Below the pieces are notes generated by a model. That model was not told the origin of the DNA and did not search any database. It saw only the letters and a program-made list of their open reading frames with translations. Shown piece by piece: positions 25,218 through 51,301 of a stretch of 64,000 nucleotides of DNA (its first letter is position 1; each line of letters opens with the position of its first letter). The DNA is from Variovorax paradoxus (GTDB taxonomy: Bacteria > Pseudomonadota > Gammaproteobacteria > Burkholderiales > Burkholderiaceae_C): contig NZ_CP046622.1 of the NCBI RefSeq assembly GCF_009755665.1, forward strand, positions 1,612,001-1,676,000, given 5' to 3'. The position numbers and the translations under genes are program-made.

Positions 25218-26092
25218 GGGCCGTTCGCATCCACGGCTTCGAGGCACAGCCCGTGCTGGAAGAAGTGCCCGACCCGGTACACAGGCCGGGCCGCACCATC
25301 GTGCGCATGCAGGCGGCCACCGTCGGCCACATCGACCGCACCGTGTGGCGCGGCAGTTTCCTGCGGCATCCGCCGCTGCCGTACACACCGGGCGTGGAAG
25401 CCGCCGGCATCGTCGTCGCAAGCGAACGCTACGCCGCAGGCCAACGCGTCTGGTTGCGCGGCAGCGGCCTGGGGACGCTGTTCGACGGCACCTGGTGCGA
25501 GCTGATCGATGCGCCCGACGAAGCGCTCGGCGTGCTGCCCGATGCATTGCCGATGCCCCTCGGCGCTGCGTTCTTTTCGCCCACCACGTCGGCGTGGGTG
25601 GCGCTGCATGAAGTTGCCAGGCTGCAGGTCGGCGAACAGGTGTTGGTGACAGGCGCGAGCGGTGCCGTCGGCTCGCTGGCCGTGCAGCTCGCAATCGAAG
25701 CCGGTTGCACCGTGACGACGGTCGATCCTGATGCCGGGCCTCCACCTGTCGCGAGTGCGGACCTGCTGATCGACACGGTGGGCGGAAGCGTCCTTTCGGC
25801 GGTACTTCCCGCCGTGCGGCCGGGTGGCCGGGCCGTGCTCATCGGCTACACCGCGGGCCCAATGCTGCAGCTGGACATCGCGCACTTTCTGCAGCGCGAC
25901 GTGGCGCTGCTGCCGCTCAACATGTTCAGGCGCGAGGCCGCTGGCCGTGCCGCCGCGCCCGGGTTGCTCGCCCGCCTGGCCGACGGGCGGCTGCACCTCG
26001 ACGTGCGCAGCTTCGCGCTGGCCGATGCCGCCACGGCACTCGAATGGATTGCGCAGCGCGGCCACCGCGGTCGCGCAGTGCTGGAGCCCTAG
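25214..26092 (+). CDS. quinone oxidoreductase-like (MDR family) protein
   Basis: A 292-residue medium-chain dehydrogenase/reductase without zinc ligands. The GroES-like N-terminal domain contains PLPYTPGVEAAGIVV; the nucleotide site is VTGASGAVGSLAVQLA. Relatives are NADPH-dependent quinone or enoyl reductases. It is somewhat shorter than the usual ~320 residues. It is the last gene of the operon (ATGA overlap upstream) and its stop overlaps the convergent MarR gene's stop by 4 bases. Confidence 0.87.
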   Translation: MRAVRIHGFEAQPVLEEVPDPVHRPGRTIVRMQAATVGHIDRTVWRGSFLRHPPLPYTPGVEAAGIVVASERYAAGQRVWLRGSGLGTLFDGTWCELIDAPDEALGVLPDALPMPLGAAFFSPTTSAWVALHEVARLQVGEQVLVTGASGAVGSLAVQLAIEAGCTVTTVDPDAGPPPVASADLLIDTVGGSVLSAVLPAVRPGGRAVLIGYTAGPMLQLDIAHFLQRDVALLPLNMFRREAAGRAAAPGLLARLADGRLHLDVRSFALADAATALEWIAQRGHRGRAVLEP

Positions 26093-26565
26093 TCCTCCTC
26101 TGGCTCCTCGACCGGCACATGCACGTGCAGGTCGATCATCTGCCGCAGCGTCTGCTTGAGTTCTTCGGCACGGCGCAGGCCGAAGGGTTCGAGCACGCGC
26201 CGCTCGTGGTCGCGCGCGAGCTCCATCAGATGCTCCACCGCCTTCAAGCCCTTGCGCGTGATGCGCACCAGCGTGATGCGGCGATCACTCTCATGGGGCA
26301 GCCGCTCGACCTGTCCGCGCGCTTCCATGCGGTCGAGCAGACGCGTCACGGTGGGCTGCTTGGTCACCGTTACCTGCGCAAGCTGGCCGATGCTGATCGG
26401 CTCGCTGCCGGCAAGCGACGCCATCACCCGCCACTCGGAAACCGAGAAGCCCTGCTGTCGCGCCACCTCGTGGAACTCCGAGGAGATCAGCTGGCTGGCC
26501 TGCGCCAACAGCGCCGGCAGGTAGTCATCGACGAAGCGATGTGTTTCAGCAGGTTGCTCAGCCAT
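26089..26565 (-). CDS. MarR family transcriptional regulator (iorA-divergent)
   Basis: A 158-residue winged-helix regulator. The HTH is seen in ISIGQLAQVTVTKQPTVTRLLDRMEARGQVERL and the wing in DRRITLVRITRKG. MarR proteins usually repress divergent catabolic genes and release DNA on binding an aromatic ligand. It is divergent from iorA across 159 bases containing a candidate promoter and ATTCAT direct repeats. In the published Variovorax auxin locus two MarR regulators are present; this would correspond to one of them, by position only. The last residues are acidic (EEPEED). Confidence 0.9.
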   Translation of the reverse strand: MAEQPAETHRFVDDYLPALLAQASQLISSEFHEVARQQGFSVSEWRVMASLAGSEPISIGQLAQVTVTKQPTVTRLLDRMEARGQVERLPHESDRRITLVRITRKGLKAVEHLMELARDHERRVLEPFGLRRAEELKQTLRQMIDLHVHVPVEEPEED

Positions 26566-26637
26566 GAATGCACCTCATGGCAACGCGCTTCATACCGGCC
26601 GCAGGCACGCTGCTTGCATGTCTAGGGTAATTCATGA

Positions 26638-26666
26638 TTGTGGATACATTCATTTGTCAACATTAT
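26638..26666 (+). promoter_or_regulatory. candidate promoter of the iorA operon
   Basis: TTGTGG (26638-26643), a 17-base spacer and CATTAT (26661-26666), in an AT-rich island between the divergent MarR gene and iorA. ATTCAT occurs twice 18 bases apart (26630-26635, 26648-26653), flanking and overlapping the -35, and may be part of a MarR operator. Confidence 0.5.
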
Positions 26667-26724
26667 AGAAAGCGTGATGTGGCAGCTGAAGCGCATCCTC
26701 CCACGAGAAAGAAGAAGGACCCAC

Positions 26725-28917
26725 ATGGCTGAGCGTTCATTCGTCGAAGAAGTCAAGAAGTTGCGACTTTCCGGTGGCGAGGTGTTCCGCGGTGAAGGCA
26801 TTCTGGCCGTCACCAAGGCCTTGCTCGAATCGGGGGTTTCCTATGTGGCCGGCTACCAGGGCGCACCCATCTCGCACCTGATGGACGTGCTGGCCGATGC
26901 GCAGGACATCCTCGCCGAGCAGGGGATCCGCTTCGAGAACAGTGCGAGCGAAGCCACCGCCGCAGCCACGCTGGCCGCCTCCGTCAACTATCCGCTGCGC
27001 GGCGCCGTCACGTTCAAGGCGACCGTGGGCACCAACGTGGCGTCCGACGCACTGGCCAACCTGGCCTCGGGCGGCGTCACCGGCGGCGCGCTCATCATCG
27101 TGGGCGAAGACTACGGCGAGGGCTCTTCCATCATGCAGGAGCGCAGCCACGCCTTCGCAATGAAGTCGCAGATCTGGCTGCTCGATCCGCGGCCCAACCT
27201 GCCAAGCATCGTCGATGCTGTGAAAACGGGCTTCGATCTTTCCGAGGCCAGCAACACGCCCGTGATGCTGCAGTTGCGCATTCGCGCCTGCCACGTGCAC
27301 GGCCACTTCATCGCAGGCGACAACAAGCGCGCCAAGTTCACCCTGCAAGAGGCGCTGGAGAACCCGCAGCGCGACGTCAGCCGCATCGTGCTGCCGCCCG
27401 CCAGCTTCGTGCATGAACAAGAGAAAGTGAAAGACCGCTGGCCCGCCGCGGTGCGCTTCATCGAGGAGCGCAAGCTCAACGAATTTTTCTCCGAAGACGC
27501 CGACGACATCGGCATCATCGTGCAGGGCGGCAGCTACAACACACTGCTGCGCGCGCTGGAGCGCCTGGGCCTGGCCGACGTGTACGGCAACACCCAGGTG
27601 CCTCTCTACGTGATGAACGTGGCCTACCCGGTCATCCAGAGCGAGGTCATCCGCTTCTGCGAAGGCAAGCGCGCGGTGCTGATCGTCGAAGAAGGGCAGC
27701 CCAACTTCGTCGAGCAGAACCTCGCGACCATCCTGCGGCAGGCGGGCTCTGCGACCGTGCTGCACGGCAAGGACATGTTGCCCGTGGCCGGCGAATACAC
27801 GGCGTCCGAGCTGCTGAAGGGCGCACGCGCCTTCTGCGAGCGCTACGAGCGGCTCGCGCCATTGCCCGTACCGGCGCCGGTGCGCAAGGTGATCCCGCTG
27901 AAGGAAGTCGCCGCCATCGGCGTCGATGCGGCACCCGAGCCGGCCATGCCATCCACGGCGCTCGGCGACGTCGTGCACGCGCGCCCGCCAGGCTTTTGCA
28001 CCGGCTGCCCCGAGCGCCCGATCTTCAGCGCAATGAAGCTGGTCGAGCGTGAACTCGGTGCGCACCACGTCAGCGCCGACATCGGCTGCCACCTGTTCTC
28101 CATCCTGCCGCCCTTCAACATCGGCAACACCACTATGGGCTACGGCCTGGGCGGTGCCGGTGCGGCGGCGCTGAATGCGCCCGCCGGCAAGCGCGCCATC
28201 TCGATGATGGGCGACGGCGGCTTCTGGCACAACGGCCTCACGAGCGGGGTGGCCAACGCGGTGTTCAACAAGAGCGACAACCTCACCATCATTGTCGACA
28301 ACAACTACACCTCGGCCACCGGCGGGCAGGACATCCTTTCGTCGAACGCCATCAACAAGACGCGCAGCACCGGCCACGAGATCGAGCGTGCCGTGCGGGG
28401 CGTTGGCGTGGAGTGGGTCAAGACGATGCGCCGCACCTACGACGTTGCAGGCATGCGCGATGCGCTGAAAGAAGCGCTCACCACCACCAAGAAGGGTCCG
28501 AAGGTCCTCATCGCCCAATCGGAGTGCATGCTCAACAAGCAGCGCCGCGAGAAGCCGCTCGTGCGCAAGGCCATTGCCGATGGCAAGCGCATGGTGCGCG
28601 AAAAGTTCGGCGTCGATTCGGATACCTGCACCGGCGACCACTCGTGCATCCGCCTGTCGGGCTGCCCGTCGCTCTCGATCAAACCCAACCCCGATCCGTT
28701 GCGCGTCGATCCCGTGGCCACCGTGCTCGACAGTTGCGTGGGCTGCGGCAATTGCGGCGACGTTTCGCATGCCGCCGTGCTGTGCCCCTCGTTCTACAAG
28801 GCGCAGGTCGTGAGCAACCCGACAGGCTGGGACAAGCTGCGCGAGCGCGTGCGCAGCGCCGTCATCGGCTGGCTGCAGCGCGGCGACGCGCGACGGCGCG
28901 AAGCCTATGCCTTCTGA
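26725..28917 (+). CDS. iorA: indolepyruvate ferredoxin oxidoreductase, alpha subunit
   Basis: IorA-type subunit, 730 residues. It is a thiamine-diphosphate 2-oxoacid:ferredoxin oxidoreductase that decarboxylates indole-3-pyruvate or phenylpyruvate to the aryl-acetyl-CoA. The N-terminal pyrimidine-binding domain has GYQGAPISHLMDV; the TPP domain has MMGDGGFWHNGL...DNNYTSATGGQ. The C-terminus carries two [4Fe-4S] cysteine sets, CTGDHSCIRLSGCP and CVGCGNCGDVSHAAVLCP. ATG 26725 follows GAAGAAGGA. Its subunit partner follows with an 11-base overlap. In context it would route indolepyruvate into indole-3-acetyl-CoA. Confidence 0.93.
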   Translation: MAERSFVEEVKKLRLSGGEVFRGEGILAVTKALLESGVSYVAGYQGAPISHLMDVLADAQDILAEQGIRFENSASEATAAATLAASVNYPLRGAVTFKATVGTNVASDALANLASGGVTGGALIIVGEDYGEGSSIMQERSHAFAMKSQIWLLDPRPNLPSIVDAVKTGFDLSEASNTPVMLQLRIRACHVHGHFIAGDNKRAKFTLQEALENPQRDVSRIVLPPASFVHEQEKVKDRWPAAVRFIEERKLNEFFSEDADDIGIIVQGGSYNTLLRALERLGLADVYGNTQVPLYVMNVAYPVIQSEVIRFCEGKRAVLIVEEGQPNFVEQNLATILRQAGSATVLHGKDMLPVAGEYTASELLKGARAFCERYERLAPLPVPAPVRKVIPLKEVAAIGVDAAPEPAMPSTALGDVVHARPPGFCTGCPERPIFSAMKLVERELGAHHVSADIGCHLFSILPPFNIGNTTMGYGLGGAGAAALNAPAGKRAISMMGDGGFWHNGLTSGVANAVFNKSDNLTIIVDNNYTSATGGQDILSSNAINKTRSTGHEIERAVRGVGVEWVKTMRRTYDVAGMRDALKEALTTTKKGPKVLIAQSECMLNKQRREKPLVRKAIADGKRMVREKFGVDSDTCTGDHSCIRLSGCPSLSIKPNPDPLRVDPVATVLDSCVGCGNCGDVSHAAVLCPSFYKAQVVSNPTGWDKLRERVRSAVIGWLQRGDARRREAYAF

Positions 28918-30433
28918 AGCGACGATGACGACCAAGGCACAACCCATCAAGATCGCGATCCTCGCCATGGGCGGGGAGGGCGGCGGCGTGCTGGCTGACT
29001 GGATCGTCGACATGGGCGAAGCCAACGGCTACGTCGCCCAGACCACCTCGGTGCCGGGCGTGGCGCAGCGCACGGGCGCCACCATCTACTACGTCGAGCT
29101 CTATCCAACGGCACAGGCCGAAGCGGATGGCGGCCGCCCCGTGCTGGCGCTGATGCCGCTGCCTGGCGATGTGGACGTGGTGCTCGCTTCGGAACTCATG
29201 GAAGCGGGTCGGGCGGTGCAGCGCGGGCTGGTCACCAGCGACCGCACCACGCTCATCGCGTCCACGCACCGTGTGTTCTCCATTGCCGAGAAAAGCGCGC
29301 TGGGCGACGGTCGCGTCGACAGCACGCAGTTGCTCGCGCACACGGCCCGGGCCGCCAAGCGCTTCATCCGTTTCGACATGGCCCAGGCCGCCGAGGCCTC
29401 GGGCAGCGTGATCAGCGCCGTGCTGTTCGGTGCGCTGGCGGGCTCGGGCGTGCTCCCGTTCAGCCGCGCGCAGTTCGAAGCAACCATCGAGCGCGGCGGC
29501 GTGGGCGTCAAGCCCAGCCTCAAGGCCTTTGGCGGCGCATTCGCTCGCGCGCAGGCCGGCGACGATGGTGAGACACCGCCGGAAGCCGCGGCGGCTGTGC
29601 CCACTCCGCAACCACGCCACCCCGCCGTCCGTGCGCTGGTCGAACGCGTGCAACGCGACTTTCCTGCAGCCGCGCAAGACTTCCTGCTCGAAGGTGTGCG
29701 CCGCCTCATCGACTACCAGGACCCTGCGTATGCCGGCCTCTACCTCGATCGCATGGCTGCCATTGCGGCGCTGCCCGGCGACAGCGCGCACCGGCTGCTG
29801 CGCGAAACGGCTCGCCACCTCGCACTCTGGATGTCGTACGAAGACACCGCCCGCGTCGCTGCGCTCAAGACCCGCGCCACCCGCTTCGAACGCGTGCGCG
29901 GCGAGGCCCGCGTGCAGCCGGGGCAGGTGCTCGCCATCAACGAATACATGCATCCGCGCCTGCAGGAAATCTGCGAAACCCTGCCGGGCGGCATCGGCCG
30001 GTGGCTCATGAACTCCACATGGCCGAAGAAGCTCGTCGAGCGATTCACGCAGCACGGCCGCTTGATCCAGACCAGCTCGCTGCACGGCTACCTCATGCTG
30101 CGCATGGTTGCGGCTTGCAGGCGCTGGCGCCTGTCGACGACGCGCTATGCCGAGGAAAACCGCCGCATCGAGGAATGGCTGCAGCGCATTGCCACTGCCG
30201 CACGACACAACCCCGAGCTGGCGGTGGAGCTCGCGCAGTGCCAGCGCCTCGTCAAGGGCTACAGCGACACGCACGAGCGCGGTGTCCGCAACTACGACAC
30301 GGTGATGCGCGCGGTGGAGCGCGCCGGTGAACGGCTAGCGCCTGCCACCCTGCGCGAACTGCGCGACGCGGCGCTCGCCGACGAACACGGCCTCAAGCTG
30401 CAAGCCGCGTTGGCGCAGCACGCGCTGGCCTGA
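28907..30433 (+). CDS. indolepyruvate oxidoreductase subunit beta family protein with DUF6537 domain
   Basis: A 508-residue fusion. Residues 1-~190 are the gamma-type (IorB-like) oxidoreductase domain, with GGEGGGVLADWIV and TTSVPGVAQRTGATIYYVE; the rest is a helical, Arg-rich region of the DUF6537 type. Stand-alone IorB proteins are ~200 residues, so the extra domain is the notable feature; its role is unknown. It overlaps iorA by 11 bases (a second ATG at 28925 would avoid this). It must pair with the preceding TPP subunit. Confidence 0.88.
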   Translation: MPSEATMTTKAQPIKIAILAMGGEGGGVLADWIVDMGEANGYVAQTTSVPGVAQRTGATIYYVELYPTAQAEADGGRPVLALMPLPGDVDVVLASELMEAGRAVQRGLVTSDRTTLIASTHRVFSIAEKSALGDGRVDSTQLLAHTARAAKRFIRFDMAQAAEASGSVISAVLFGALAGSGVLPFSRAQFEATIERGGVGVKPSLKAFGGAFARAQAGDDGETPPEAAAAVPTPQPRHPAVRALVERVQRDFPAAAQDFLLEGVRRLIDYQDPAYAGLYLDRMAAIAALPGDSAHRLLRETARHLALWMSYEDTARVAALKTRATRFERVRGEARVQPGQVLAINEYMHPRLQEICETLPGGIGRWLMNSTWPKKLVERFTQHGRLIQTSSLHGYLMLRMVAACRRWRLSTTRYAEENRRIEEWLQRIATAARHNPELAVELAQCQRLVKGYSDTHERGVRNYDTVMRAVERAGERLAPATLRELRDAALADEHGLKLQAALAQHALA

Positions 30434-30451
30434 AGAGACAACCGACGCACG

Positions 30452-31444
30452 ATGACCGCACCCACCGCCACGCTCCAGCTCCGCGTTGCCGAGGCACGCC
30501 AACTCAAGCCGCTCATCCGCATGCTGCGTCTGCGCGCGGAAGATGGCCGCCCGCTGCCCGGCTTTGCAGCCGGCGCGCACATCCGCGTGCAGGTGAAGCT
30601 GCCCGATGGCAAGGCCGACTGGCGCCACTACTCGCTGATCAACTTTGCGACCGCGCGCAATGCCACGAACGCGCCGACCGAATACGTGATTGCCGTGCGC
30701 AAGGAGGCCGAAGGCCGCGGCGGCTCGCGCTTCATGCACGAGCAACTGAAAGAGGGCGACACGCTCGCCATCGAGGCGCCGAAGAACGACTTTCCGCTGC
30801 ACACCGGCCCCGGCGGCTCGGTGCTGGTGGCGGGCGGCATCGGCGTGACGCCGCTCGCCACCATGGCCGCGCGCCGCCGCGCCGAAGGGGCGCCGGTGCG
30901 CATGCACTACGCCGGCCGCAGCCGCGAGCTGATGGCCTTCCTGCCCGAACTGCAGACGCTGCTCGGCGACGACCTGCGCGTGCATGCCGATGCCGAAGCC
31001 GGCGCACCACTCGACATCGACACGCTACTCGACGATGTGCCCGCCGGTGACCGCCTCTACGTCTGCGGACCCAAGGTCATGCTCGACGCCGTGCTGGCCC
31101 GCACCCAGGCGCGCGGGTGGGAGCATGACCGTGTGCACTTCGAACTCTTTACCGAGCCCGTCGCCGAAGACGGCGACCAGCCTTTCGAAGTGGAGCTTGC
31201 CCAGACTGGCCAGCGCTTCACCGTTGCGGCCGACCAGAGCATTCTCGATTGCCTCATCGACAACGGCTGCGACCCGATGTTCGACTGCAAGCGCGGCGAA
31301 TGCGGCGTGTGTGCCGTGCCCGTGCTCGAAGGCGAGATCGATCATCGCGACTACGTGCTCACCGCCCGAGAGAAGGCCGAGGGCAACGTCATGCAGATCT
31401 GCATCTCGCGCGCCAAGGGTGCGCGCCTGGTGCTCGACATGTGA
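30452..31444 (+). CDS. PDR/VanB-family oxidoreductase (Rieske oxygenase reductase component)
   Basis: A 330-residue reductase moving electrons from NAD(P)H through FMN to a plant-type [2Fe-2S] cluster. Order: flavin-binding barrel with RHYSLIN (~58-64), nucleotide site GGIGVTPLATMA (~129-140), and C-terminal ferredoxin CKRGECGVCAVP with a fourth Cys in MQICIS. This is the phthalate dioxygenase reductase/VanB arrangement. It is directly upstream of a Rieske alpha/beta pair and is the only such reductase in the locus, so it probably serves both pairs. By position it corresponds to the reductase of the Variovorax iad locus. Confidence 0.92.
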   Translation: MTAPTATLQLRVAEARQLKPLIRMLRLRAEDGRPLPGFAAGAHIRVQVKLPDGKADWRHYSLINFATARNATNAPTEYVIAVRKEAEGRGGSRFMHEQLKEGDTLAIEAPKNDFPLHTGPGGSVLVAGGIGVTPLATMAARRRAEGAPVRMHYAGRSRELMAFLPELQTLLGDDLRVHADAEAGAPLDIDTLLDDVPAGDRLYVCGPKVMLDAVLARTQARGWEHDRVHFELFTEPVAEDGDQPFEVELAQTGQRFTVAADQSILDCLIDNGCDPMFDCKRGECGVCAVPVLEGEIDHRDYVLTAREKAEGNVMQICISRAKGARLVLDM

Positions 31445-31460
31445 AGGAGCCACGAGAACC

Positions 31461-32774
31461 ATGCCTTCGTACCGAGACAACCCTGATGCCGTTCGTGCGC
31501 TGGTGCAGAACGACCGTGTGCACCGCGACCTGTACACCAGCCAGGAACTCTTCGAGGTGGAGCAGGAGCACTTCTTCGCCAACACCTGGAACTACGTCGG
31601 GCACGAGAGCCAGGTGCCCAAGCCCGGCGACTGGATCAGCAACGAGATCGCAGGCCGCCCGCTCATCGTCGTGCGCCACACCGACGGCAGCGTGCGCGCA
31701 ATGATGAACCGCTGCGCCCACAAGGGTTCGCGCCTGGTGAGCGCACCGTGCGGCAACACCGGCAAGTTCTTTCGCTGCCCGTACCACGCGTGGACCTTCA
31801 AGACCGACGGCTCGCTGCTCGCCATTCCACTCAAGACCGGCTACGAGAACACGGCGCTGCATGAGTGCGAGTCGGCCAAGGGCCTGACCACGCTCAAACA
31901 CGTGCGCAGCCACCGCGGCTTCATCTTCGTGAAGATCAACGATGCGGGGCCCGACTTCGACGAGTATTTCGGCGATTCGCTGAGCTCCATCGACAACATG
32001 GCCGACCGGTCGCCCGAGGGCGAGCTCGAGATTGCCGGCGGGTGCCTGCGCTTCATGCACCAGTGCAATTGGAAGATGTTCGTCGAGAACCTCAACGACA
32101 CGATGCACCCGATGGTGGCGCACGAATCGTCGGCCGGCACCGCCAAGCGCATGTGGGCCGACAAGCCCGCCGACGAGCCCAAGCCCATGGCCGTGGAGCA
32201 GTTCGTGCCCTTCATGTCCGACTACAAGTTCTTCGAGGACATGGGCATTCGCACCTACGACCACGGCCACAGCTTCACGGGCGTGCACTTCAGCATCCAC
32301 AGCAAGTACAAGGCAATTCCCGAGTACGACGACGCCATGAAGGCGCGCTACGGCGAGGAAAAAACCGCGCAGATCCTCGGCATGGCACGGCACAACACCG
32401 TGTACTACCCGAACCTCACCATCAAGGGCGCGATCCAGGCGATCCGCGTGGTGAAGCCGATCTCCGCCGACAAAACGCTGATCGAGAGCTGGACATTCCG
32501 CTTGAAGGGCGCCCCGCCCGAACTGCTGCAGCGCACCACCATGTACAACCGGCTCATCAACTCGCCGTTCTCGGTGGTGGGTCACGACGACCTGCAGGCG
32601 TATCGCGGCATGCAGGCCGGGCTGCACGCGAGCGGAAACGAGTGGGTCAGCCTGCACCGCGACTACGACCCGTCCGAGCTGAAGGGCGGAGAGATCACCA
32701 CCGGCGGCACCAACGAGCTGCCGATGCGCAACCAGTACCGCAGCTGGGTGCAGCGCATGACGGAGACGATGTGA
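31461..32774 (+). CDS. aromatic ring-hydroxylating dioxygenase alpha subunit 1
   Basis: A 437-residue Rieske non-haem iron oxygenase large subunit. Rieske ligands are Cys85/His87 and Cys106/His109; the mononuclear iron site is Asp213-x2-His216-x4-His221 with a later Asp in GHDDLQAYRG. It adds O2 to an aromatic ring using electrons from the adjacent reductase. Its neighbours (IorA, CoA ligase, isatin-hydrolase-like cyclase) point to an indole-ring substrate; oxidation of indole-3-acetate to dioxindole-3-acetate is my preferred inference. The stop shares a base with the beta subunit start (TGATG). Confidence 0.93.
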   Translation: MPSYRDNPDAVRALVQNDRVHRDLYTSQELFEVEQEHFFANTWNYVGHESQVPKPGDWISNEIAGRPLIVVRHTDGSVRAMMNRCAHKGSRLVSAPCGNTGKFFRCPYHAWTFKTDGSLLAIPLKTGYENTALHECESAKGLTTLKHVRSHRGFIFVKINDAGPDFDEYFGDSLSSIDNMADRSPEGELEIAGGCLRFMHQCNWKMFVENLNDTMHPMVAHESSAGTAKRMWADKPADEPKPMAVEQFVPFMSDYKFFEDMGIRTYDHGHSFTGVHFSIHSKYKAIPEYDDAMKARYGEEKTAQILGMARHNTVYYPNLTIKGAIQAIRVVKPISADKTLIESWTFRLKGAPPELLQRTTMYNRLINSPFSVVGHDDLQAYRGMQAGLHASGNEWVSLHRDYDPSELKGGEITTGGTNELPMRNQYRSWVQRMTETM

Positions 32775-33274
32775 TGGCCGGCACCGACGCTTCGACCCAG
32801 ATCACCCGCCAGGACCTGATCGACTTCGTCGTGAACGAAGCACGCCTGCTCGACACGCGCCGCTATGAAGAGTGGAACGCGCTCTTCACCGACGACGCGT
32901 TCTATTGGGTGCCGCTCGTGCCCGACCAGGAAGATGGGCTCAACCACACCTCGCATCTGTACGAAGACAAGCTGCTGCGCGACCTGCGCATCGAACGCCT
33001 CAAGAGCCCGCGTGCGTTTTCGCAGCAGCCACCGAGCCGCTGCCACCACCTGCTGCAGGTGCCGGTGGTTGAGACTTTCGACGCCGAAGGCAACCGCTTC
33101 GTGGTGCGCACCGAGTTTCACTACACCGAATCGCAAGGCGATGAGCTGCAGTTCTACGTCGGCACCTTCTTCCACTACCTCGCGGTGCACGACGGCACGC
33201 TGCGCATGACGCTCAAGCGCGTGAATCTGCTCAACTGCGACGCGGCGCTGCCTGCCGTGCAGCTTTTCATCTAG
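32774..33274 (+). CDS. aromatic ring-hydroxylating dioxygenase beta subunit 1
   Basis: A 166-residue small subunit of the NTF2-like fold. It opens with RQDLIDFVVNEARLLDTRRYEEWNALF and ends with the conserved AVQLFI. Beta subunits are structural and modulate substrate choice in alpha3beta3 oxygenases. It starts on the last base of the alpha subunit stop, ensuring stoichiometric translation. A CoA ligase gene follows after 7 bases. Confidence 0.92.
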   Translation: MAGTDASTQITRQDLIDFVVNEARLLDTRRYEEWNALFTDDAFYWVPLVPDQEDGLNHTSHLYEDKLLRDLRIERLKSPRAFSQQPPSRCHHLLQVPVVETFDAEGNRFVVRTEFHYTESQGDELQFYVGTFFHYLAVHDGTLRMTLKRVNLLNCDAALPAVQLFI

Positions 33275-33281
33275 GGACGCG

Positions 33282-37338: not shown

Positions 37339-37352
37339 AGAAGGAACCCACG

Positions 37353-38887: not shown

Positions 38888-38937
38888 TTTTTCAGCGTTC
38901 GTTTCGTTCACCACCCACAACACCCTGGAGCACCGCC

Positions 38938-40104: not shown

Positions 40105-40153
40105 GATGAGGCCTTGTTTTTCGCACGAAGCAACGCAAGCCGGAGTAACCAAG

Positions 40154-41299: not shown

Positions 41300-41321
41300 C
41301 AGAAAAACCGAGCGTCCGCCG

Positions 41322-43105: not shown

Positions 43106-43144
43106 GTTTCCGTTCCTTCCATTCTTTCTCACTGGAGCTACGAC

Positions 43145-44308
43145 ATGAAGAGCCTGATGCTGACCTTGACGCGCGGTGCCATCGCCGCGGCGCTGACTGC
43201 CTGCAGCGTTGCGAGCGCGTTTGCGGCCGACCTCAAGGTCGGCCTGAGCGTGTCGCTTTCGGGCCCCAATTCTTCGTTGGGCGTGCCGTATGCGAAGGGC
43301 ATGCAGGCGGCCCTGGCCTACAAGCCCGAGATCAACGGACGCAAGGTGCAGCTCATCGTGCTGGACGACGGCTCCGACCCGACCACGGCCGGGCGCAATG
43401 CGCGCAAGCTCGTCGAAGAGGAGAAGGTCGATGTGCTCATGGGCACTTCGGGCGTGCCGGCGGCCATCGCAATGGCGCAGGTCGGCCGCGACGCGAAGAC
43501 GCCGATGATCGGCCTCACGCCCATTCTGCTCGACGCGAACGAGAACCCGTGGGTCATGACGGTTGCGCAGCCCACGCAGCTGATGATCGATGCGGTGGTC
43601 GAGCGAATGAAGCGCAACAACGTGAAGACCGTAGGCTACATCGGCTTTACCGACGCCTGGGGCGACCTGGTCTACAACGCGCTCATGAAGGCCGCGCCCG
43701 AAGCCGGCATCAAGGTGGTGAGCAACGAGCGCTACGCGCGCGCCGATGCCTCCGTGACCGGGCAGGTGCTGAAGATCGTCGCGCTGCGTCCGGATGCGGT
43801 GATGACCGGCGGCGCCGGCACGCCGGGCGCATTGCCGTTTCTCGCGCTGCAGGAGCGCGGCTACAAGGGGGGCGTGTACGGCCAGCATGGGCTCATCAAC
43901 CCCGACTTCGTGCGCGTGGTCGGCGCTTCCGGCCAGAACGCGTCGATGCCCACCGGCCCGGTGATCGTTGCCGAGCAGCTGCCGGACACCTACCCGACCA
44001 AGAAGATCGCGACCGACTTCCGTGCGGTGTTCCAGAAGGTCAACAACGCGCCGACCAGCGATGCCTTCTCGGCCTATTCCTTCGATGGCTGGCTGGTGTT
44101 TGCCGATGCCGCCTCGCGCGCCATGAAGAAGGCCGAGCCGGGCACGGCGGAGTTTCGGGTGGCATTGCGCGATGCGATCTTCAGCACCAAGGAGGTGGTG
44201 GGCACGCACGGCGTGTACAGCTTCAAGCCCGGCAGCCTCTACGGCGTGGACGAACGTGCCCGCGTGATCGTCAAGCTCGACAACGGCCAATGGAAGCTCG
44301 CACCTTGA
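43145..44308 (+). CDS. ABC transporter substrate-binding protein 3 (LivJ-type)
   Basis: A 387-residue periplasmic binding protein, third paralogue of the set, placed between the second oxygenase and the permease genes. Signal peptide MKSLMLTLTRGAIAAALTACSVASAFA, then ADLKVGLSVSLSGPNSSLG. A Cys inside the signal core (TACSVAS) could mimic a lipobox but the spacing to a SAFA|A cleavage site is better. Being next to livH, it is the best candidate for the principal partner of this transporter. Confidence 0.92.
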   Translation: MKSLMLTLTRGAIAAALTACSVASAFAADLKVGLSVSLSGPNSSLGVPYAKGMQAALAYKPEINGRKVQLIVLDDGSDPTTAGRNARKLVEEEKVDVLMGTSGVPAAIAMAQVGRDAKTPMIGLTPILLDANENPWVMTVAQPTQLMIDAVVERMKRNNVKTVGYIGFTDAWGDLVYNALMKAAPEAGIKVVSNERYARADASVTGQVLKIVALRPDAVMTGGAGTPGALPFLALQERGYKGGVYGQHGLINPDFVRVVGASGQNASMPTGPVIVAEQLPDTYPTKKIATDFRAVFQKVNNAPTSDAFSAYSFDGWLVFADAASRAMKKAEPGTAEFRVALRDAIFSTKEVVGTHGVYSFKPGSLYGVDERARVIVKLDNGQWKLAP

Positions 44309-44345
44309 ACCGCTTGACGACGATGTTCTTGCCTGAGGTTTTCCC

Positions 44346-45401
44346 ATGACGTGGGACGTCGCGCTGATCCTCATCACCGATGGCCTGGCCAACGGTGCCG
44401 TCTATCTGCTCGCCGGGCTCGGGCTGGTGCTGATCTTTTCGGTCACGCGGGTGGTGTTCGTGCCGTTCGGCGACATCGCGGCCTTTGCGGCACTGTCGCT
44501 GGCTGCCTTCGAAACCGGCCGCGTGCCCCCGACCATCGGCATGGTGGCGGTGCTCACGGCGCTGGCGCTGGTAACCGAAGTCGGCAGCCTGCTGCGGCGC
44601 GGTGAGGTCGCCCGCATTCCGAAGGCGGTGCTGATGTGGGGCGTGTTGCCCGCGATTCCCTGCGTGCTTGCATGGCTTGCGGCGCGGCCGGGCGTGCCGG
44701 TGGCGGTGCATATCGCGGTGGCGGTGCTCCTGGTGGTGCCCATCGCGCCGCTGCTGGCGCGGGTGGTGTTTCAGCCGATTGCCGACGCGTCGGTGCTGGT
44801 GCTGCTGATCGTGTCGCTGGCGCTGCACTTCCTGCTCTCGGGCCTGGGCCTGTTGTTCTTCGGCCCTGAAGGCTCGCGCACCACGCCGCTCACGAGCGCG
44901 GTGTTCACGCTGGGCGACGGGTTCACGGTCAGCGGCCAGGTGGTGCTGATGGTGGGCGCGGCCATTGTGCTGAGCGGGTTGTTCTTCCTGGTGTTCGAGC
45001 GCACGGTGGCCGGCAAGGCGCTGCGCGCCACGGCCGTCAACCGCGTGGGTGCGCGGCTGGTCGGCATCCGGCCGGTGCGCACGGCGCTGCTGGCCTACGG
45101 TTGTGCATCGCTGCTGGCCGGGCTCATCGGCGTGCTGATCGCGCCGGTGACGACCATGTACTACGACTCGGGTTTCATCATCGGCCTGAAGGCGTTCGTG
45201 GCCGCAATCATCGGCGGGCTCGTGAGCTATCCGATGACGGCCGTGGGCGCGCTCGCGGTCGGCGTGGTGGAAAGCTTTGCGTCTTTCTGGAGCGGTGCGC
45301 TGAAAGACGTGATCGTGTTCAGCCTGCTCATACCGGTGCTGATGCTGCGCTCCTTCATGGCCGCGCACTCCGAAGAGGAAGAAGACGAGGTGGAGCAATG
45401 A
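44346..45401 (+). CDS. branched-chain-type ABC transporter permease (LivH-like)
   Basis: A 351-residue inner-membrane permease with 8-9 hydrophobic segments. LivH features: DGLANGAVYLLAGLGLVLIFSVTRVV at the N-terminus and the cytoplasmic loop GKALRATAVNRVGARLVGI that contacts the ATPase. It is longer than typical LivH (~300), with an extra stretch around residues 65-135, and ends in a very acidic tail EEEEDEVEQ. It overlaps the permease-ATPase fusion gene by 4 bases. Confidence 0.92.
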   Translation: MTWDVALILITDGLANGAVYLLAGLGLVLIFSVTRVVFVPFGDIAAFAALSLAAFETGRVPPTIGMVAVLTALALVTEVGSLLRRGEVARIPKAVLMWGVLPAIPCVLAWLAARPGVPVAVHIAVAVLLVVPIAPLLARVVFQPIADASVLVLLIVSLALHFLLSGLGLLFFGPEGSRTTPLTSAVFTLGDGFTVSGQVVLMVGAAIVLSGLFFLVFERTVAGKALRATAVNRVGARLVGIRPVRTALLAYGCASLLAGLIGVLIAPVTTMYYDSGFIIGLKAFVAAIIGGLVSYPMTAVGALAVGVVESFASFWSGALKDVIVFSLLIPVLMLRSFMAAHSEEEEDEVEQ

Positions 45402-47185
45402 ACGGCAACCGCAAACGCATGGGCTTGATCGCCCTGGTCGTCGTCGTGCTGGCGCTGGTGCCGGCGGTGGCGGGCAGCTTCACCGTTTCTCTGCTCAACG
45501 ACATCGGCATCGGCGCGCTGGTGGCGCTCGGGCTGGTGCTGCTCACCGGCGTGGGCGGTGCAACCTCGTTCGGGCAGGCGGCCTTCGTGGGAATCGCGGC
45601 CTATGCGACGGCGTGGCTCACGACCACGCAGGGCATGTCTCCATGGATCGGCCTTCTGTTCGCGCTGCTGCTCACCGGGCTCTCGGCGCTCGCCATCGGC
45701 ATGCTCACGCTTCGGCTGGGCGGGCACTTCCTGCCGCTGAGCACCATCGCCTGGGGGTTGTCCATCGCAATGCTGTTCGGCAACGTCGATGCGCTCGGGC
45801 GCCATACGGGGCTGTCGAACATTCCGGCGCTGCAGGTCGCGGGCTGGTCGCTGGCCGATCCGCGGTCGATGTACTACCTGATCTGGGTGGTGGTCGGGAT
45901 CGCCTGCCTGTTCAGCCACAACCTGCTGCAGTCGCGCCCGGGCCGGGCGATTCGCGGGCTGCGCGGCGGTGCCACGCTGCTGGCCAGCGTGGGGGCGGAT
46001 GCCTACCGCGTGCGGCTCACGCTGTTTGTGACGGCCGCGCTCTTTGCGGGGCTGGCTGGTTGGCTCTATGCGCACATGAACCGCTTCGTGAGCCCGTCCC
46101 CGTTCGACGTGCGCGCGAGCATCGAGTATTTGCTGATGGCGGTGGCCGGCGGGCTCGGGCAACTGGCTGGCGCGCTGGTGGGCGCGGCCCTGGTGCTGGT
46201 GCTGAAGAACGGCCTGCAAGACGTGCTGCCCATGCTCACGCAGCGTGCCGGGCAGCTGGAGGCGGTGGCGTTCGCAACGCTGTTCATTCTGCTGCTGCAC
46301 TTTGCGCGGGGCGGCGTCATGGGCCTGCTGCGGCGCTGGATGCGCCGCAAGGGCGGCACCCACGGTTCATCACGCTACGACGCACCCGCGGTCGATCCGC
46401 TGCCGCATCGCCAGTTGCCCGCGCGCGGCACGCAGGTGCTGTCGGTGAAAGGCGCCGTCAAGCGCTTCGGCGGGCTCGTGGCTGTTAACGACGTGAGCTT
46501 CGAAGTGAATGCGGGCGAGATCATCGGTTTGATCGGCCCGAACGGCGCGGGCAAGTCGACGATGTTCAACCTGCTGACGTGCACGCTGCCGATGAGCGCG
46601 GGCCAGGTGCGCTTTCTGGAGCATGACATCGCCGGCATGCCGCAGCGCCAGGTGGCGCGGCTGGGGCTGGCGCGCACCTTCCAGCACGTAAAGCTGCGGC
46701 CGCACATGAGCCTGCTCGACAACGTGGCGCTGGGCGCGCATTCGCGCACGCGCTCGGGTGTCTTGAAGGCCGGCCTGCGGCTGGACCGCACCGAGGAAAA
46801 GCAGATCCTGCAGGAGGCGCAGCGCCAGCTCGACCGTATCGGCCTGGGCGACCGCGCACATGAGCTCGCAGGCAGCCTGCCGCTGGGCACGCAGCGCATT
46901 CTCGAAATTGCGCGCGCGCTGGCTGCAGACCCGGTGCTGCTGGTGCTCGACGAGCCCGCGGCGGGCCTGCGCCGCAAGGAAAAGATGGCGCTCGGCGACT
47001 TGCTTCGCAAACTGCGCGAAGAGGGCGTGACCATCCTGATCGTGGAACACGACATGGACTTCGTGATGAAACTGGTGGACCGGTTGGTGGTGATGAACTT
47101 CGGCTCCAAGCTCGTGGAGGGCGTGCCGTCCGCGGTGCGTGCCGACGAGCGTGTGCAGGCGGCCTACCTGGGGAGCGTTGTATGA
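45398..47185 (+). CDS. LivM permease fused to LivG ATPase
   Basis: A 595-residue fusion of two subunits normally separate. Residues ~1-310 are a LivM-type permease ([42 protein letters not shown]); residues ~345-595 are a LivG ATPase with Walker [10 protein letters not shown], Walker [12 protein letters not shown] and H-loop VEHDMD. The signature motif is degenerate, LPLGTQ instead of LSxGQQ. A ~30-residue polar linker joins them. The LivG half should pair with the LivF that follows (ATGA overlap), giving a LivH/LivM-G/LivF importer. Confidence 0.93.
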
Positions 47186-47913
47186 CCGCGATGCTGGAGA
47201 TTGGCGATCTGCACGTGTCGTATGGGCAGGTGGAGGCCGTGCGAGGCGTTTCGCTCGACCTGCAGCCGGGGCAGATCATCTCGGTGATCGGCCCCAACGG
47301 TGCGGGCAAAACCACGCTGCTGGCCGCTGCCATGGGCCTGCTGCCCTGCAAGGGCACGCTGCGCTTCGAGGGCGAAGACCTGCAAGGGCTGGATGTGGAG
47401 GCGCGCGTGGAGCGCGGCCTGTGCCTTGTGCCCGAGAAGCGGGAGCTGTTCGGCGAGCTCACCGTGCTCGACAACCTGCAGCTCGGCGCCTATGCCAAGC
47501 GGCTGCGAGGCGACGCGATGAAGAAGCGGCTGCAATCGGTATATGACCGTTTTCCGCGGCTCGCGGAGCGACGTGCGCAGCGCGCCGACACGCTCTCGGG
47601 CGGCGAGCGGCAGATGCTGGCGGTGGGCCGTGCGCTCATGTCCGCGCCGCGCCTGCTGATGCTCGACGAGCCCAGCCTCGGCCTTGCACCGCTGATCGTG
47701 CGGGACATTCTCACCATCGTGCGCAAGCTGCGCGAAGACGGCGTATCGATCCTGCTGGTGGAGCAGAACGCGCGCGCCGCACTCGAAACCTCGGACCACG
47801 GCTACGTGCTGGAAACCGGCGAGATCGCGCTTTCGGGCGCTTCGGCCGAACTGGCGAGCGACCCTCGTGTGCAGGCCACCTATCTTGGCGGAGGCACGCA
47901 CGATGACGAGTGA
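47182..47913 (+). CDS. branched-chain-type ABC transporter ATPase (LivF-like)
   Basis: A 243-residue ATPase. Walker [10 protein letters not shown], signature LSGGERQ, Walker [12 protein letters not shown] and LVEQN (H-loop with Gln, as usual in LivF). It completes the importer with the fused LivM-G. It overlaps the fusion gene by 4 bases upstream and the second acyl-CoA ligase by 11 bases downstream, so uptake and activation of the substrate are made from one message. Confidence 0.94.
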
Positions 47914-49501
47914 ACCGCGCTCGGTGCCACCGGCGCAGCGCACGCTGCCCGCCATGCTGCAGCGCCAGGCCGCGATGTTCGGCACGCGCCCATTGCTGCG
48001 CATTGCGGGCTCTCGCTGGTCGCACGCCGACGCGGCAGAAGCAGCCGGCGCTCGCGGCGGCGCGCTCACGCAAGCCGGTGTCGAGCGGGGAGACCGCGTG
48101 GCCGTGATGTGCGGCAACCGCATCGAGTTTCTTGAAACCTTTCTCGGTGCCGGTTGGATCGGCGCTTCGACGGTGCCGATCAACACTGCCTCCATGGGGC
48201 CGCAGATCGGGTACTTTCTTGCGCACAGCGAAGCGAAGCTGCTGGTCATCGAGGCCGGCTTTCTGAACCGCCTGCAGGCTGCGGACCTGGAGCGAACGAA
48301 GCTCAAGGAAATCTGGGTCGTCGGCGAGGCGGCCGACGGCGAACCCGCCGCGTGGCTGGCACCGGCCGGCGTGCGCGTGCTGGCGTATCCCTCCGGCAGC
48401 GCAGCTGTTGGGCCGGCCGATGTTCAGCCCGGCGACCCGCTCGCCATTCTGTATACCTCGGGCACTACCGGTCCCGCCAAGGGCGTGGTCTGCCCGCACG
48501 CGCAGTATTTCTGGTGGGGTGTGAACAGCGCCGAGGTGCTCGGCGTGGCGGCGGACGACGTGCTGTGCACCACGCTGCCGCTCTTTCACATCAATGCGCT
48601 CAACACCCTTGCGCAAGCTGCGCTTACAGGCGCTGAAGTCGTCTTCGAAACGCGCTTCTCGGCCTCGGGCTTCTGGCCTTCGATGCATGCGAACGGTGCC
48701 ACCGTGGTCTACCTGCTGGGCGCCATGGTGCCGATACTGCTTGCGCAACCCGCGGGCGAGGGCGAGCGCAACCATCGCGTGCGCATCGGCCTCGGGCCTG
48801 GTGTGCCCGATGCCGCCGGCAAGGCGTTCTTCGAGCGCACCGGCGTGCGCCTGCTTGAGGGCTATGGTTCCACCGAGACCAACTTTGCCATTGCCACCGC
48901 GCCCGATTCGCCACGCGGCGGCGTCATGGGGTGGCTGCGGCCCGGCTTCCAGGCGCGCGTTGCCGATGAAAGCGACGTAGAGCTGCCCCCCGGAGAAGCC
49001 GGTGAGCTGCTGCTGCGCGCAGACGAACCGTATGCCTTCGCGAGCGGCTACTTCAACATGCCCGAAAAGACGGTGGAGGCCTGGCGCAACCTCTGGTTTC
49101 ATACCGGCGACCGCGTGGTGCGCGAAACCGACGGAGCCTTCAGGTTTGTCGACCGCATCAAGGACGCGATCCGCCGGCGCGGCGAAAACATATCGTCGTT
49201 CGAAGTGGAGCAGGTGCTGCTGAGCCATCGCAGCGTTGCGTCTTGCGCGGTGTACCCGGTGCGTTCCGAACTGGCAGAAGACGAAGTCATGGCCGCGCTG
49301 GTGCCGCGCGAGGGCGAACGCATCGATCCGCTCGAACTGATGAGCTTCTGCGAAAGCCGCCTGCCGTACTTTGCGGTGCCCCGCTATGTCGATGTATTGC
49401 CCGACCTGCCGCGCACCGAGAACGGCAAGGTGCAGAAGTTCAAGCTGCGCGAGCGCGGTGTCAGCACGCAGACCTGGGACCGTGCGCTGAACAGGCGATG
49501 A
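47903..49501 (+). CDS. acyl-CoA ligase (AMP-binding enzyme) 2
   Basis: A 532-residue ANL-superfamily ligase, distinct from the first. Motifs: [42 protein letters not shown], and catalytic Lys in TENGKVQK. It resembles crotonobetaine/carnitine or aryl-acid CoA ligases. Placed directly after the importer, it may trap the incoming acid as a CoA ester (for example indole-3-acetate or anthranilate). Which ligase acts on which intermediate is not determined by sequence. Confidence 0.9.
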
Positions 49502-49512
49502 GCCACAATCGC

Positions 49513-49530
49513 TAAAATAGTTCAGAACTA
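49513..49530 (+). promoter_or_regulatory. promoter and candidate MarR operator before the SDR-MarR genes
   Basis: A -10 like TAAAAT (49513-49518) is overlapped and followed by a perfect inverted repeat TAGTTC-A-GAACTA (49518-49530). The site would cover the transcription start of the SDR gene and of the co-transcribed MarR gene, as expected for an autorepressor. No good -35 is seen. Confidence 0.5.
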
Positions 49531-49542
49531 AACATTTCAGGC

Positions 49543-50319
49543 ATGCAAGCAAATTCATTGAAGGGCCGCCATGCCCTGGTAACCGGCGCCGCACGCGGCA
49601 TCGGCGCCGAAATCGCCCGTACCCTGGCCGCCGAAGGCGCCACGCTGACCTTGCTCGGGCGCGACATCGATTCGCTTCAACGCGCGGCTGTCTCGCTCCC
49701 GGGCCAAGGCCACGGGGTTGCGGCCGCCGATGTGGCCGATTCGCAAGCGGTGCAGGCTGCCTTCGCGCAGGCGCGCGCCGGGCGAGGGCCCGTCGCGATC
49801 CTGGTGAACAACGCCGGCGCCGCAGAAAGCGCGCCTTTTCTCAAGACTTCGGTCGAGCTCTGGCAGCGCATGCTGTCGGTCAACCTGACAGGCAGTTTCT
49901 TGTGCGCTCAAGCGGCGCTGCCCGATATGCTCGAGGCGGGCTGGGGCCGCATCGTGAATATTGCGAGCACCGCCGGCCAGAAAGGCTATGCCTATGTGGC
50001 CGCCTACACGGCTGCCAAGCACGGGGTGATCGGGCTCACGCGCTCGCTTGCGCTCGAAGTGGCCCGCAAGGGCGTGACGGTGAACGCGGTATGCCCCGGC
50101 TACACCGACACCGACATCCTGCGCGCGAGCGTCGCCAATGTGGTGGGCAAGACCGGCCGCAGCGAAGCCGATGCGCTGGCCGAGTTTGCCAACGTCAATC
50201 CGCAGCGGCGCATCGTGCAGCCCGCCGAGGTGGCCGATGCGGTGCGCTGGCTGTGCGGCGAGGGCGCTGCGTCTGTCACGGGGCAGTCAATATCGGTTTC
50301 CGGCGGGGAGGTCATGTAA
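49543..50319 (+). CDS. SDR family NAD(P)-dependent oxidoreductase
   Basis: A 258-residue classical SDR close to 3-hydroxybutyrate or 3-hydroxyacyl-CoA dehydrogenases. Motifs intact: TGAARGIG (15-22), NNAG, and YTAAKHG active site. It is preceded by its own candidate promoter and operator, and its stop overlaps the MarR gene start (TAATG), so it is directly tied to the regulator. It may oxidise a hydroxylated pathway intermediate; the substrate is unknown. Confidence 0.88.
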
Positions 50320-50846
50320 TGCGCAACGATGCCTCGCACGCCGCGCTCAGCGACGCCGAAGAACTCGGCCACGAGGCACGTGCGGGCCGTGAAGACCACG
50401 CCATGCTCAAGCTGTGGCTGCGCATGCTTGCAAGCACCACGCAGATCGAAGCCGAAATTCGGCGCCGGCTGCGCGAGCGCTTCGGCATTTCGCTGGCGCG
50501 CTTCGACTACATGGCGCAGCTCTATCGCTACGAAGAGGGCCTGAAGATGCGCGTGCTGTCGCGCTACCTGATGGTGACGGGCGGCAACGTCACCGGGCTG
50601 ACGGACGAACTCGAGCGCGACGGCGTGGTGGGGCGCGCGCACAGCCCCGACGATCGGCGCTCGTGGATCGTGAGCCTCACGCCCAAGGGCCGCGCCAGCT
50701 TCGAGGCCATGGCCAAGGAGCACGAGCAATGGATTCTCGAAATGTTCTCGGGCCTGGACATGAAGACCGTGAAGCAGATGCATGCGCAACTCGGGCAACT
50801 TCGCGTGCACGTGATGCGCAGCGAGCCGTCGGGCGAGGAGGGCTGA
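50319..50846 (+). CDS. MarR family transcriptional regulator (distal)
   Basis: A 175-residue winged-helix regulator, unlike the first MarR in sequence. HTH region MRVLSRYLMVTGGNVTGLTDELERDGVV, wing PDDRRSWIVSLTPKG. The first ~25 residues are acidic and probably disordered. It starts on the last base of the SDR stop codon and shares one base with the thioesterase start. It is the second MarR bracketing the locus; the palindrome at 49518-49530 is its most plausible target. Confidence 0.9.
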   Translation: MRNDASHAALSDAEELGHEARAGREDHAMLKLWLRMLASTTQIEAEIRRRLRERFGISLARFDYMAQLYRYEEGLKMRVLSRYLMVTGGNVTGLTDELERDGVVGRAHSPDDRRSWIVSLTPKGRASFEAMAKEHEQWILEMFSGLDMKTVKQMHAQLGQLRVHVMRSEPSGEEG

Positions 50847-51301
50847 TGAGCGCAAGCGAGCCGCGTGCGCCCCACGCCGAGTTCCGCCGCGCGCGGATGA
50901 TCCGCTTTTCCGACTGCGATCCGGCGGGCATCGTGTTCTACCCGCAGTACTTCGTCATGCTCAATGGGCTGGTGGAAGACTGGGTGAGCGAAGGGCTTGG
51001 CATCGACTACCACGCGCTCATCTCGGAGCGGCGCATCGGCTTGCCCACGGTTCGGCTCGAAGCCGACTTTCGCGCGGTGAGCCGCATGGGCGACCAGGTC
51101 GCACTCGGCCTTTCTGTCGAACGGCTGGGCTCACGCTCGATGGCGCTCGTCCTGCGCTGTTTCGAGCCTGCCAGCGGCGAACTGCGCATGCAAGTGAAGC
51201 AGGTTCTGGTGACGACTTCGCTCGAGAGCCATCGTGCGGTGGAAATTCCGCAAGACTTGCGCGCGGCCATCCTGCGCGCGTCGCGCTCTTCTGCCGCGTG
51301 A
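50846..51301 (+). CDS. acyl-CoA thioesterase, 4-hydroxybenzoyl-CoA type
   Basis: A 151-residue hotdog-fold thioesterase. The active-site segment FSDCDPAGIVFYPQYF with the catalytic Asp is typical of the 4-hydroxybenzoyl-CoA thioesterase group. It would release an aromatic acid from its CoA ester, for example an aryl-acetate or anthranilate, at the end of the pathway or as an overflow valve. It is the last gene of the locus, co-translated with the MarR gene (TGATG). Confidence 0.9.
   Translation: MSASEPRAPHAEFRRARMIRFSDCDPAGIVFYPQYFVMLNGLVEDWVSEGLGIDYHALISERRIGLPTVRLEADFRAVSRMGDQVALGLSVERLGSRSMALVLRCFEPASGELRMQVKQVLVTTSLESHRAVEIPQDLRAAILRASRSSAA

Follow-up and report, generated by a model that had tools for sequence, protein, structure and literature searches.

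The auxin-degradation (iad) locus of a Variovorax paradoxus genome, with a proposed retro-aldol step and a second Rieske oxygenase

Gene content and identity of the locus

The window analyzed here is a 64,000-nucleotide stretch of Variovorax paradoxus DNA (NCBI RefSeq assembly GCF_009755665.1, contig NZ_CP046622.1, positions 1612001 to 1676000), taken from a single-contig genome of 5.57 Mb. At positions 26089-51301 it holds what sequence comparison identifies as the iad (hotspot 33) locus of Variovorax, an already published locus for degradation of the auxin indole-3-acetic acid (IAA) and one of the foremost cases in which root bacteria control hormone levels in plants. Our reading, to which we give a probability of roughly 0.8 as a whole, is that this is the Variovorax iad locus, that its IadG and IadH proteins carry out a retro-aldol step, and that a second Rieske oxygenase encoded within it, here called D2E2, is an accessory enzyme not meant for IAA. 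Relative to the literature that we found, cited below by PubMed Central (PMC) identifier from excerpts of each paper, the locus itself is known, and what is new is the aldolase reading of IadG, the widespread occurrence of D2, and a possible link between D2E2 and 2-oxindole-3-acetic acid (oxIAA).

Identification of the locus draws on three proteins with near-identical solved counterparts. The Rieske oxygenase alpha subunit IadD (31461-32774, plus strand, as are all genes below except iadR) aligns along all of its 437 residues with 9o71, a crystal chain of V. paradoxus CL14 IadD, at 1000 bits, and also matches 7yls (about 1000 bits) and 8h2t. Its Rieske ligands (C85, H87, C106, and H109), its iron ligands (H216, H221, and D377), and the nine residues listed for the IAA pocket in PMC10374108 are all kept. 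The repressor IadR (26089-26565, minus strand) matches the MarR_73/IadR structures 7kfo and 7kki with about 323 bits over 158 residues, with three substitutions in the 158 printed, and retains all seven IAA-contact residues listed in PMC9613470 (Y15, A18, S28, H32, W45, R46, and V65). The binding protein IadK2 (38938-40104) matches 7ylt with 768 bits and has the specificity residues S104, N126, F168, W172, R199, F308, and Y311; the published Thr125 is replaced by Ala, and the surrounding stretch is the same in the printed 7ylt alignment. These counterparts, together with the published order C-D-E-F-G-H-I-J-K2, which is the nine-gene set given in PMC12633357 and recurs unchanged in the window, argue that the two loci are the same. 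A ten-gene map appears in PMC10374108, with K3 as the tenth gene by our count.

A first-pass annotation, made by a model from the letters of the window, had proposed that this was the Variovorax iad system, and the matches of IadD, IadR, and IadK2 to solved Variovorax proteins bear it out. Every gene on its list is present, in the order it gave, as long and tightly packed open reading frames (ORFs) whose families are confirmed by profile. It had also allowed for homology to non-indole pathways only, a reading that is ruled out because the best solved relatives of IadD, IadK2, and IadR are Variovorax auxin proteins. Comparison with the V. paradoxus CL14 iad locus, made through solved proteins and published order and with our own numbering beyond K2, showed the same order from C to K2, near-identical IadD, IadK2, and IadR, and two MarR regulators, and no difference of kind was found.

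Related loci were collected in a survey of 118, some of which are one contig under two handles, and the counts are not independent. In this survey the D types were assigned by residue 311, short matches were dropped, and matches below 45% for SDR3, LivF, and LivMG were not displayed; a scan of neighboring genes in relatives' loci (including L104, L112, L121, and L122) dropped matches covering less than 40% of the query. Named Variovorax and Pseudacidovorax loci repeat nearly the same gene order, with altered versions in Ramlibacter and Rhodoferax, and the arrangement is therefore far beyond chance. In the nearest named locus, L131 (Variovorax sp. DXTD-1), 19 iad proteins are 93-100% identical to those of the window.

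The early steps of the pathway can be assigned from CL14. IadD is accompanied by the reductase IadC (30452-31444), recognized by its Fer2 and FAD_binding_6 domains and its published role, and by the beta subunit IadE (32774-33274), recognized by profile. His311 of IadD shifts on IAA binding, and the in vitro product of IadC/IadDE on IAA is oxIAA (PMC10374108), whereas in cells a different C10H9NO3 arises, probably an epoxide, from which IadJ then yields dioxindole-3-acetic acid (DOAA) (PMC12633357). IadJ (38162-38887) is a short-chain dehydrogenase/reductase (SDR) by profile with an intact YxxxK motif, the Tyr and Lys being kept in 88 of 88 relatives; in this count, as in those for IadG, IadH, and IadI below, matches of less than 48% identity or too short were left out and some loci were counted under two handles. 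Because the proteins are nearly identical to those of CL14, the steps published for that strain, in which IadC/IadDE oxidize IAA and IadJ then makes DOAA, would also apply here. IadF (33282-34919), an AMP-forming coenzyme A (CoA) ligase by profile, would next make DOAA-CoA, the step that published reasoning gives it.

A predicted retro-aldol step

The roles of IadF to IadI in PMC12633357 were inferred largely from annotation, and it is here that our comparison departs from the published scheme. IadG (34916-36088) has the thiolase fold, and its nearest solved chains are, in rank order, 9myr_A (175.6 bits, a lipid-transfer protein), 4u4e_A (a thiolase), 6ok1_A (a lipid-transfer protein), and 7yvy_A (an acetyl-CoA acetyltransferase). 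We take 9myr and 6ok1 to be the steroid side-chain aldolases Sal-Shy and Ltp2-ChsH2, respectively, on the basis of the YDCY motif, the molecule names, and the partner chains. With these aldolases IadG shares a thiolase fold devoid of the nucleophilic Cys, a Tyr base within a YDxY/F motif, and a DUF35 zinc-ribbon partner. The position of the thiolase nucleophile is occupied by Gly (G87) in all 86 relatives, and the YDxY motif (Y283-D-D-Y286) is found in 85 of the 85 that are readable there, one of the 86 being cut short. According to PMC12329534, the Tyr of this motif serves as the base in both Sal and Ltp2, and Sal is incapable of thiolysis because a Gly occupies its Cys position.

The likely partner, IadH (36085-37338), joins a DUF35 half, made up of a ChsH2-type zinc ribbon and an OB fold (Pfam zf-ChsH2 and OB_ChsH2_C), to an SDR domain. 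The first matches of the DUF35 half are 6ok1_B (E value of 1.6e-07) and 9myr_B (E value of 1.5e-06), both weak, followed by DUF35 chains of thiolase and acylase complexes, and its C4 zinc ribbon (C48-x2-C51-x10-C62-x2-C65) is present in 80 of 80 relatives. Classical SDRs carry the motifs TGxxxGxG and YxxxK. In this domain, Asp replaces the first Gly of TGxxxGxG in 80/80 IadH proteins, the catalytic Tyr is gone in 69 of them, and fully canonical motifs occur in none of the 80.

The substrate itself bears on the question, as DOAA-CoA is a tertiary beta-hydroxyacyl-CoA, which has no route to a beta-ketoacyl-CoA and is suited to retro-aldol cleavage. Given an IadG without the nucleophilic Cys but with the YDDY base motif, a DUF35 partner, a degenerate SDR domain in IadH, and a tertiary hydroxyl on the substrate, we propose that IadG and the DUF35 domain of IadH would cleave DOAA-CoA by a retro-aldol reaction to isatin and acetyl-CoA. 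By its residues, IadG seems to be an aldolase and not the ketothiolase of the published assignment, a point that goes beyond the literature found.

The following gene is consistent with isatin as the product. IadI (37353-38165) is closest to isatin hydrolases, with 5nmp, 5nna, 5nnb, and 4j0n as its best solved relatives and 376.6 bits to 5nmp over nearly the full length, and its Mn ligands His-x3-His-x-Asp (H79, H83, and D85) are kept in 79/79 relatives, the metal ligands of LaIHA being those of PMC6117287. Both the near full-length match and the metal ligands are thus shared with the isatin hydrolases LaIHA and RsIHA, from which IadI differs in sitting in an auxin operon and in having a predicted substrate. 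IadI would hydrolyze isatin to isatinate, which would go on to anthranilate. Isatin, isatinic acid, and dioxindole have been found in CL14 cultures (PMC9613470).

Several observations weigh against this proposal. Asp285 of IadG lies at the position of Sal Cys304 and of an Ltp2 His; the known proton donors being Cys304 of Sal and Tyr344 of Ltp2, that of IadG is probably a different one. The system also departs from Sal-Shy and Ltp2-ChsH2 in the fusion of its DUF35 domain to a degenerate SDR and in the indolic substrate proposed. DUF35 domains partner true thiolases too (6esq), so a DUF35 partner alone proves nothing, and the catalytic Tyr is kept in 11 of the 80 IadH proteins. Furthermore, PMC12633357 infers a reductive removal of the side chain, with IadH as an alcohol dehydrogenase, and reports that C8H7NO2, with the mass of dioxindole, builds up without iadI; a retro-aldol route must explain this compound by assuming that isatin is reduced by other enzymes.

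In the scheme annotated in PMC12633357, IadG would be a true thiolase, IadH a true alcohol dehydrogenase, and the side chain would be removed reductively. The annotation and the C8H7NO2 accumulation speak for it, as do the names of 4u4e_A and 7yvy_A, thiolase and acetyl-CoA acetyltransferase. The absence of the nucleophilic Cys in 86/86 IadG proteins and the noncanonical SDR motifs in 80/80 IadH proteins are hard to reconcile with such a scheme, and chemically the tertiary 3-hydroxyl cannot be oxidized to the beta-keto group that thiolysis requires. We therefore regard it as unlikely. If the retro-aldolase reading is true, the chemistry published for two core steps will have to be revised.

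The fate of isatinate raises the question of iadA and iadB. IadA (26725-28917) is an IorA-type, thiamine pyrophosphate (TPP)-dependent 2-oxoacid oxidoreductase alpha subunit (PF02775), and IadB (28925-30433) is the IorB-type beta subunit (PRK08312, 746 bits, above the cut-off), with an uncertain start in an ORF that opens at 28907. Rather than being an indolepyruvate enzyme, IadAB might act at a late stage of the pathway, as an oxidoreductase for isatinate (2-aminophenylglyoxylate). Isatinate is a 2-oxoacid, which would suit a 2-oxoacid oxidoreductase; IadA scores under the indolepyruvate equivalog cut-off (TIGR03336, 286.5 bits against 650.9); and C8H7NO3 and C7H7NO rise strongly only in strains overexpressing iadC-K2, by name without iadAB (PMC12633357). 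However, the same construct still restores anthranilate (PMC12633357), figure legends in PMC9613470 name iorA/iorB homologues across auxin loci, and just 55 of 108 IadD-type loci showed both A and B, with flanks that are often incomplete. Among solved structures IadA has just a weak TPP-domain match, from which no substrate can be read. A late role for IadAB is accordingly a tentative idea, with chances clearly short of even.

A second Rieske oxygenase

Two Rieske pairs had been noted in the first-pass annotation, and both are present, although only the first is the published IAA oxygenase. The second consists of the alpha subunit D2 (41322-42641) and the beta subunit E2 (42638-43105, by profile). 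D2 and IadD share 56% identity (245 of 434 positions in an ungapped comparison), which by itself already fixes the predicted fold of D2. In a tree of 66 of the 92 distinct proteins, from which 24 close genus rows and two proteins longer than 470 residues were left out, D2-type sequences form their own clade (support of 100/98); several long branches were flagged, some of them D2-type. Residues were tabulated for 91 of the 92, leaving out a 43%-identity paralogue, with classes set by tree and identity and not by residue 311. All metal ligands, as well as N210, F251, K322, R329, and Y362, are invariant in the 48 IadD-type and 43 D2-type sequences. D2 lacks the His311 of the IAA pocket, with Gln there in 43/43 D2-type sequences, 30 of which are genus rows at at least 90% identity. 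A further Rieske alpha gene lies elsewhere in the source genome (3003212-3004477), with 42-44% identity to IadD and D2.

Within the genus, D2 and IadD are equally common. IadD is found in 90 of 101 genus genomes (E value of 1e-215) and D2, counted by its alpha subunit, likewise in 90 (best match at an E value of 3.0e-226 or better; 91 match at 1e-80). Both occur together in 89, and the two exceptions are drafts, one of 960 contigs (G066), in which the best match of the D2 search is a 58% IadD-type gene only, and one that is 58% complete (G075). The operon was described as conserved in all Variovorax genomes then available (PMC10329457). In wider searches, relatives of IadD or D2 were present in 39/399 family genomes, including five from the genus (E value of 1e-100), and in 13/399 order and 7/398 phylum genomes (E value of 1e-120). 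Among named loci, D2-type genes were seen together with iad genes in those of Variovorax, Pseudacidovorax, Ramlibacter (in L170 but not in L140), and Rhodoferax. In some genus members (G006 and G046) IadD and D2 lie about 12.4-12.6 kb apart, against about 10 kb as usual, and there is therefore extra DNA in between.

A search of open-license PMC papers, without their supplementary files, found none that names a second iad oxygenase; the papers with iadD2 or iadE2 deal with DNA methylation or yeast. D2E2 of CL14 would be genes 60-59 by inferred numbering, and on that basis the published genetics, in the excerpts cited, give it no role in IAA breakdown. Homology and pocket residues in common with IadD might suggest a spare IAA oxygenase, but loss of iadDE in CL14 ends IAA degradation (PMC9613470), and an insert that runs no further than gene 61, ahead of D2E2 by the same numbering, suffices for it (PMC10329457). 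These results disfavor a spare role, which we consider highly improbable. We propose instead an accessory role for D2E2, as an oxygenase of a related acid.

Its substrate can be read in two ways. One possibility, to which we would give slightly less than an even chance, is that D2E2 acts on a compound unrelated to oxIAA, be it anthranilate or some other indolic or aryl acid. The D2-type pair of one locus (L100) adjoins different catabolic genes, and both pairs match oxygenase profiles for benzoate, phenylpropionate, and anthranilate, in every case below cut-off; set against this are a D2 pocket like that of IadD and the 56% overall identity.

Another possibility is a dedicated oxIAA system, in which D2E2, with the binding protein IadK3, would convert oxIAA to DOAA in one step and feed the aldolase-isatin route. 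The pocket frame common with IadD, altered from His to Gln at 311 in all D2-type sequences, is consistent with this, and so is the neighboring gene. IadK3 (40154-41299), a paralogous binding protein with V104, P126, and L172, does not bind IAA but binds oxIAA weakly (PMC10374108). K3 at at least 60% identity is present in 28/118 loci, of which all 28 have D2, and the K3 proteins scored in relatives' loci carry the same three residues. Two loci, L104 and L112, are D2-type only, with F, G, H, and I but without J. In their genomes (89% complete with contamination of 6, and 97% complete, respectively) the best IadD matches are the D2-type genes (49% and 47%), with the rest at 36-38%, and no IadJ was found at an E value of 1e-50. 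The oxygenase there should therefore itself deliver the IadF substrate, as C3 hydroxylation of oxIAA would do. In addition, CL14 fully consumes the 2-hydroxy-IAA present in media controls (PMC9613470).

Against an oxIAA system, oxIAA is reported as a minor peak, undepleted, in the CL14 iad deletion (PMC12633357), and its binding by IadK3 is weak. The co-occurrence of K3 and D2 is mostly within one family, with duplicates among the loci, and D2-bearing loci without a K3-type protein also exist (L097, L098, L099, and L141), as does the L100 pair beside other catabolic genes. Absence of J proves little, since three IadD-type loci (L106-L108) also lack a recognizable J, and no IadJ was found genome-wide (E value of 1e-50) in G742, which carries an IadD-type locus lacking it. 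As a marker of D2-type chemistry, IadJ absence is weakened further by its extent, for 4/75 IadD-type loci with G, H, and I are without J, namely these three and L158, whose contig ends there. A dedicated oxIAA system is thus possible but doubtful, and we are just as cautious about oxIAA as a second entry to the pathway, whether it comes as plant-inactivated auxin or arises spontaneously from the IadDE product.

The point has practical weight. Other strains are being equipped with a cassette of nine iad genes (PMC12633357), which by its gene names leaves out D2E2, whose alpha subunit matches IadD in genus spread. If D2E2 uses oxIAA, such cassettes are without an entry for a major plant auxin breakdown product, and Variovorax would eat both the active hormone and oxIAA, the plant's disposal product. 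The value of the locus lies in these two testable points, the aldolase step and the second oxygenase.

Related loci in other genera

The Achromobacter iad loci share an R-A-B-C-D-E-F-G-H-I-J core in 5/5 fetched loci (L184, L194, L195, L197, and L198). They differ in having no D2-type gene within the fetched 10-kb flanks, a binding protein about 40% like K2/K3, and Q at position 211 in the IadD pocket. Gene order in Bradyrhizobium had been suggested as a check, and shared genes were indeed found there (A, B, C, D, E, and J in L200 and L201, with G, H, I, and F also in L175), but the order did not hold, as genes are rearranged or in part missing from the stretch that was fetched; no D2-type gene lies within the fetched flanks of these three loci.

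Several other arrangements were seen. A Pandoraea metagenome-assembled genome (MAG) has a compact run of D2-type alpha, iadC, iadD, iadE, and iadJ (L139:9713-15066), with no E2 match beside the D2-type gene. Four Paraburkholderia loci (L142, L143, L146, and L149) have C-D-E-F-J, a weak G-like match (38-40%), and no H or I in the fetched stretch, and their downstream chemistry may differ. An IadD-E-J cluster also occurs in a record titled Klebsiella pneumoniae MAG (L154), probably a mislabeled or chimeric bin.

Regulation, uptake, and flanking genes

As in the Variovorax iad locus, the iadR gene is divergent from iadA, and IAA lifts IadR off a 24-bp site in the gap between them (PMC9613470). 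By the same logic IAA would release the repressor in this strain. An imperfect palindrome at 26634-26653, ATGATTGTGGATACATTCAT, is a likely IadR site because a like block stands in relatives' iadR-iadA gaps; of 27 gaps aligned, 14 were printed and judged by eye, and the palindrome is a candidate on that comparison rather than on one with the letters of the published site. Two MarR regulators had been called, and both are there, the first of them on the minus strand. The second, iadR2 (50319-50846), is a MarR protein by profile and MarR_50-type by position; its role is given as unclear in the excerpts of PMC9613470, and a search of solved structures gave no informative relative pointing to a ligand.

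Of the three binding proteins named in the first-pass annotation, all are present, with IAA binding published for IadK2 alone in the portions of PMC10374108 cited. The third, here called K1 (43145-44308), was recognized by profile and carries V104, P126, and W172. IAA would be bound by IadK2 and imported through the Liv-type transporter. This importer had been listed as LivHMGF and is present as a LivH-type permease (44346-45401), a LivF-type ATPase (47182-47913), and, in place of separate LivM and LivG genes, one fused ORF of 595 residues (45398-47185) encoding permease and ATPase. Downstream lie a second AMP-forming CoA ligase (47903-49501; NF004808, 855 bits, above the cut-off), an SDR oxidoreductase (49543-50319), and, after iadR2, a 4HBT-type thioesterase (50846-51301), the last two recognized by profile.

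On the other side of the locus, four overlapping plus-strand genes at 22350-26092 meet iadR tail to tail. By Pfam they encode an octopine dehydrogenase-like protein, a 3-hydroxyacyl-CoA dehydrogenase-like protein, an alpha/beta hydrolase, and a medium-chain dehydrogenase/reductase (MDR) oxidoreductase, and they probably belong to the published 25-gene hotspot, as genes 77-74 on our numbering. A homologue of the MDR gene also stands upstream of iad genes in loci L121, L122, L158, L162, and L165.

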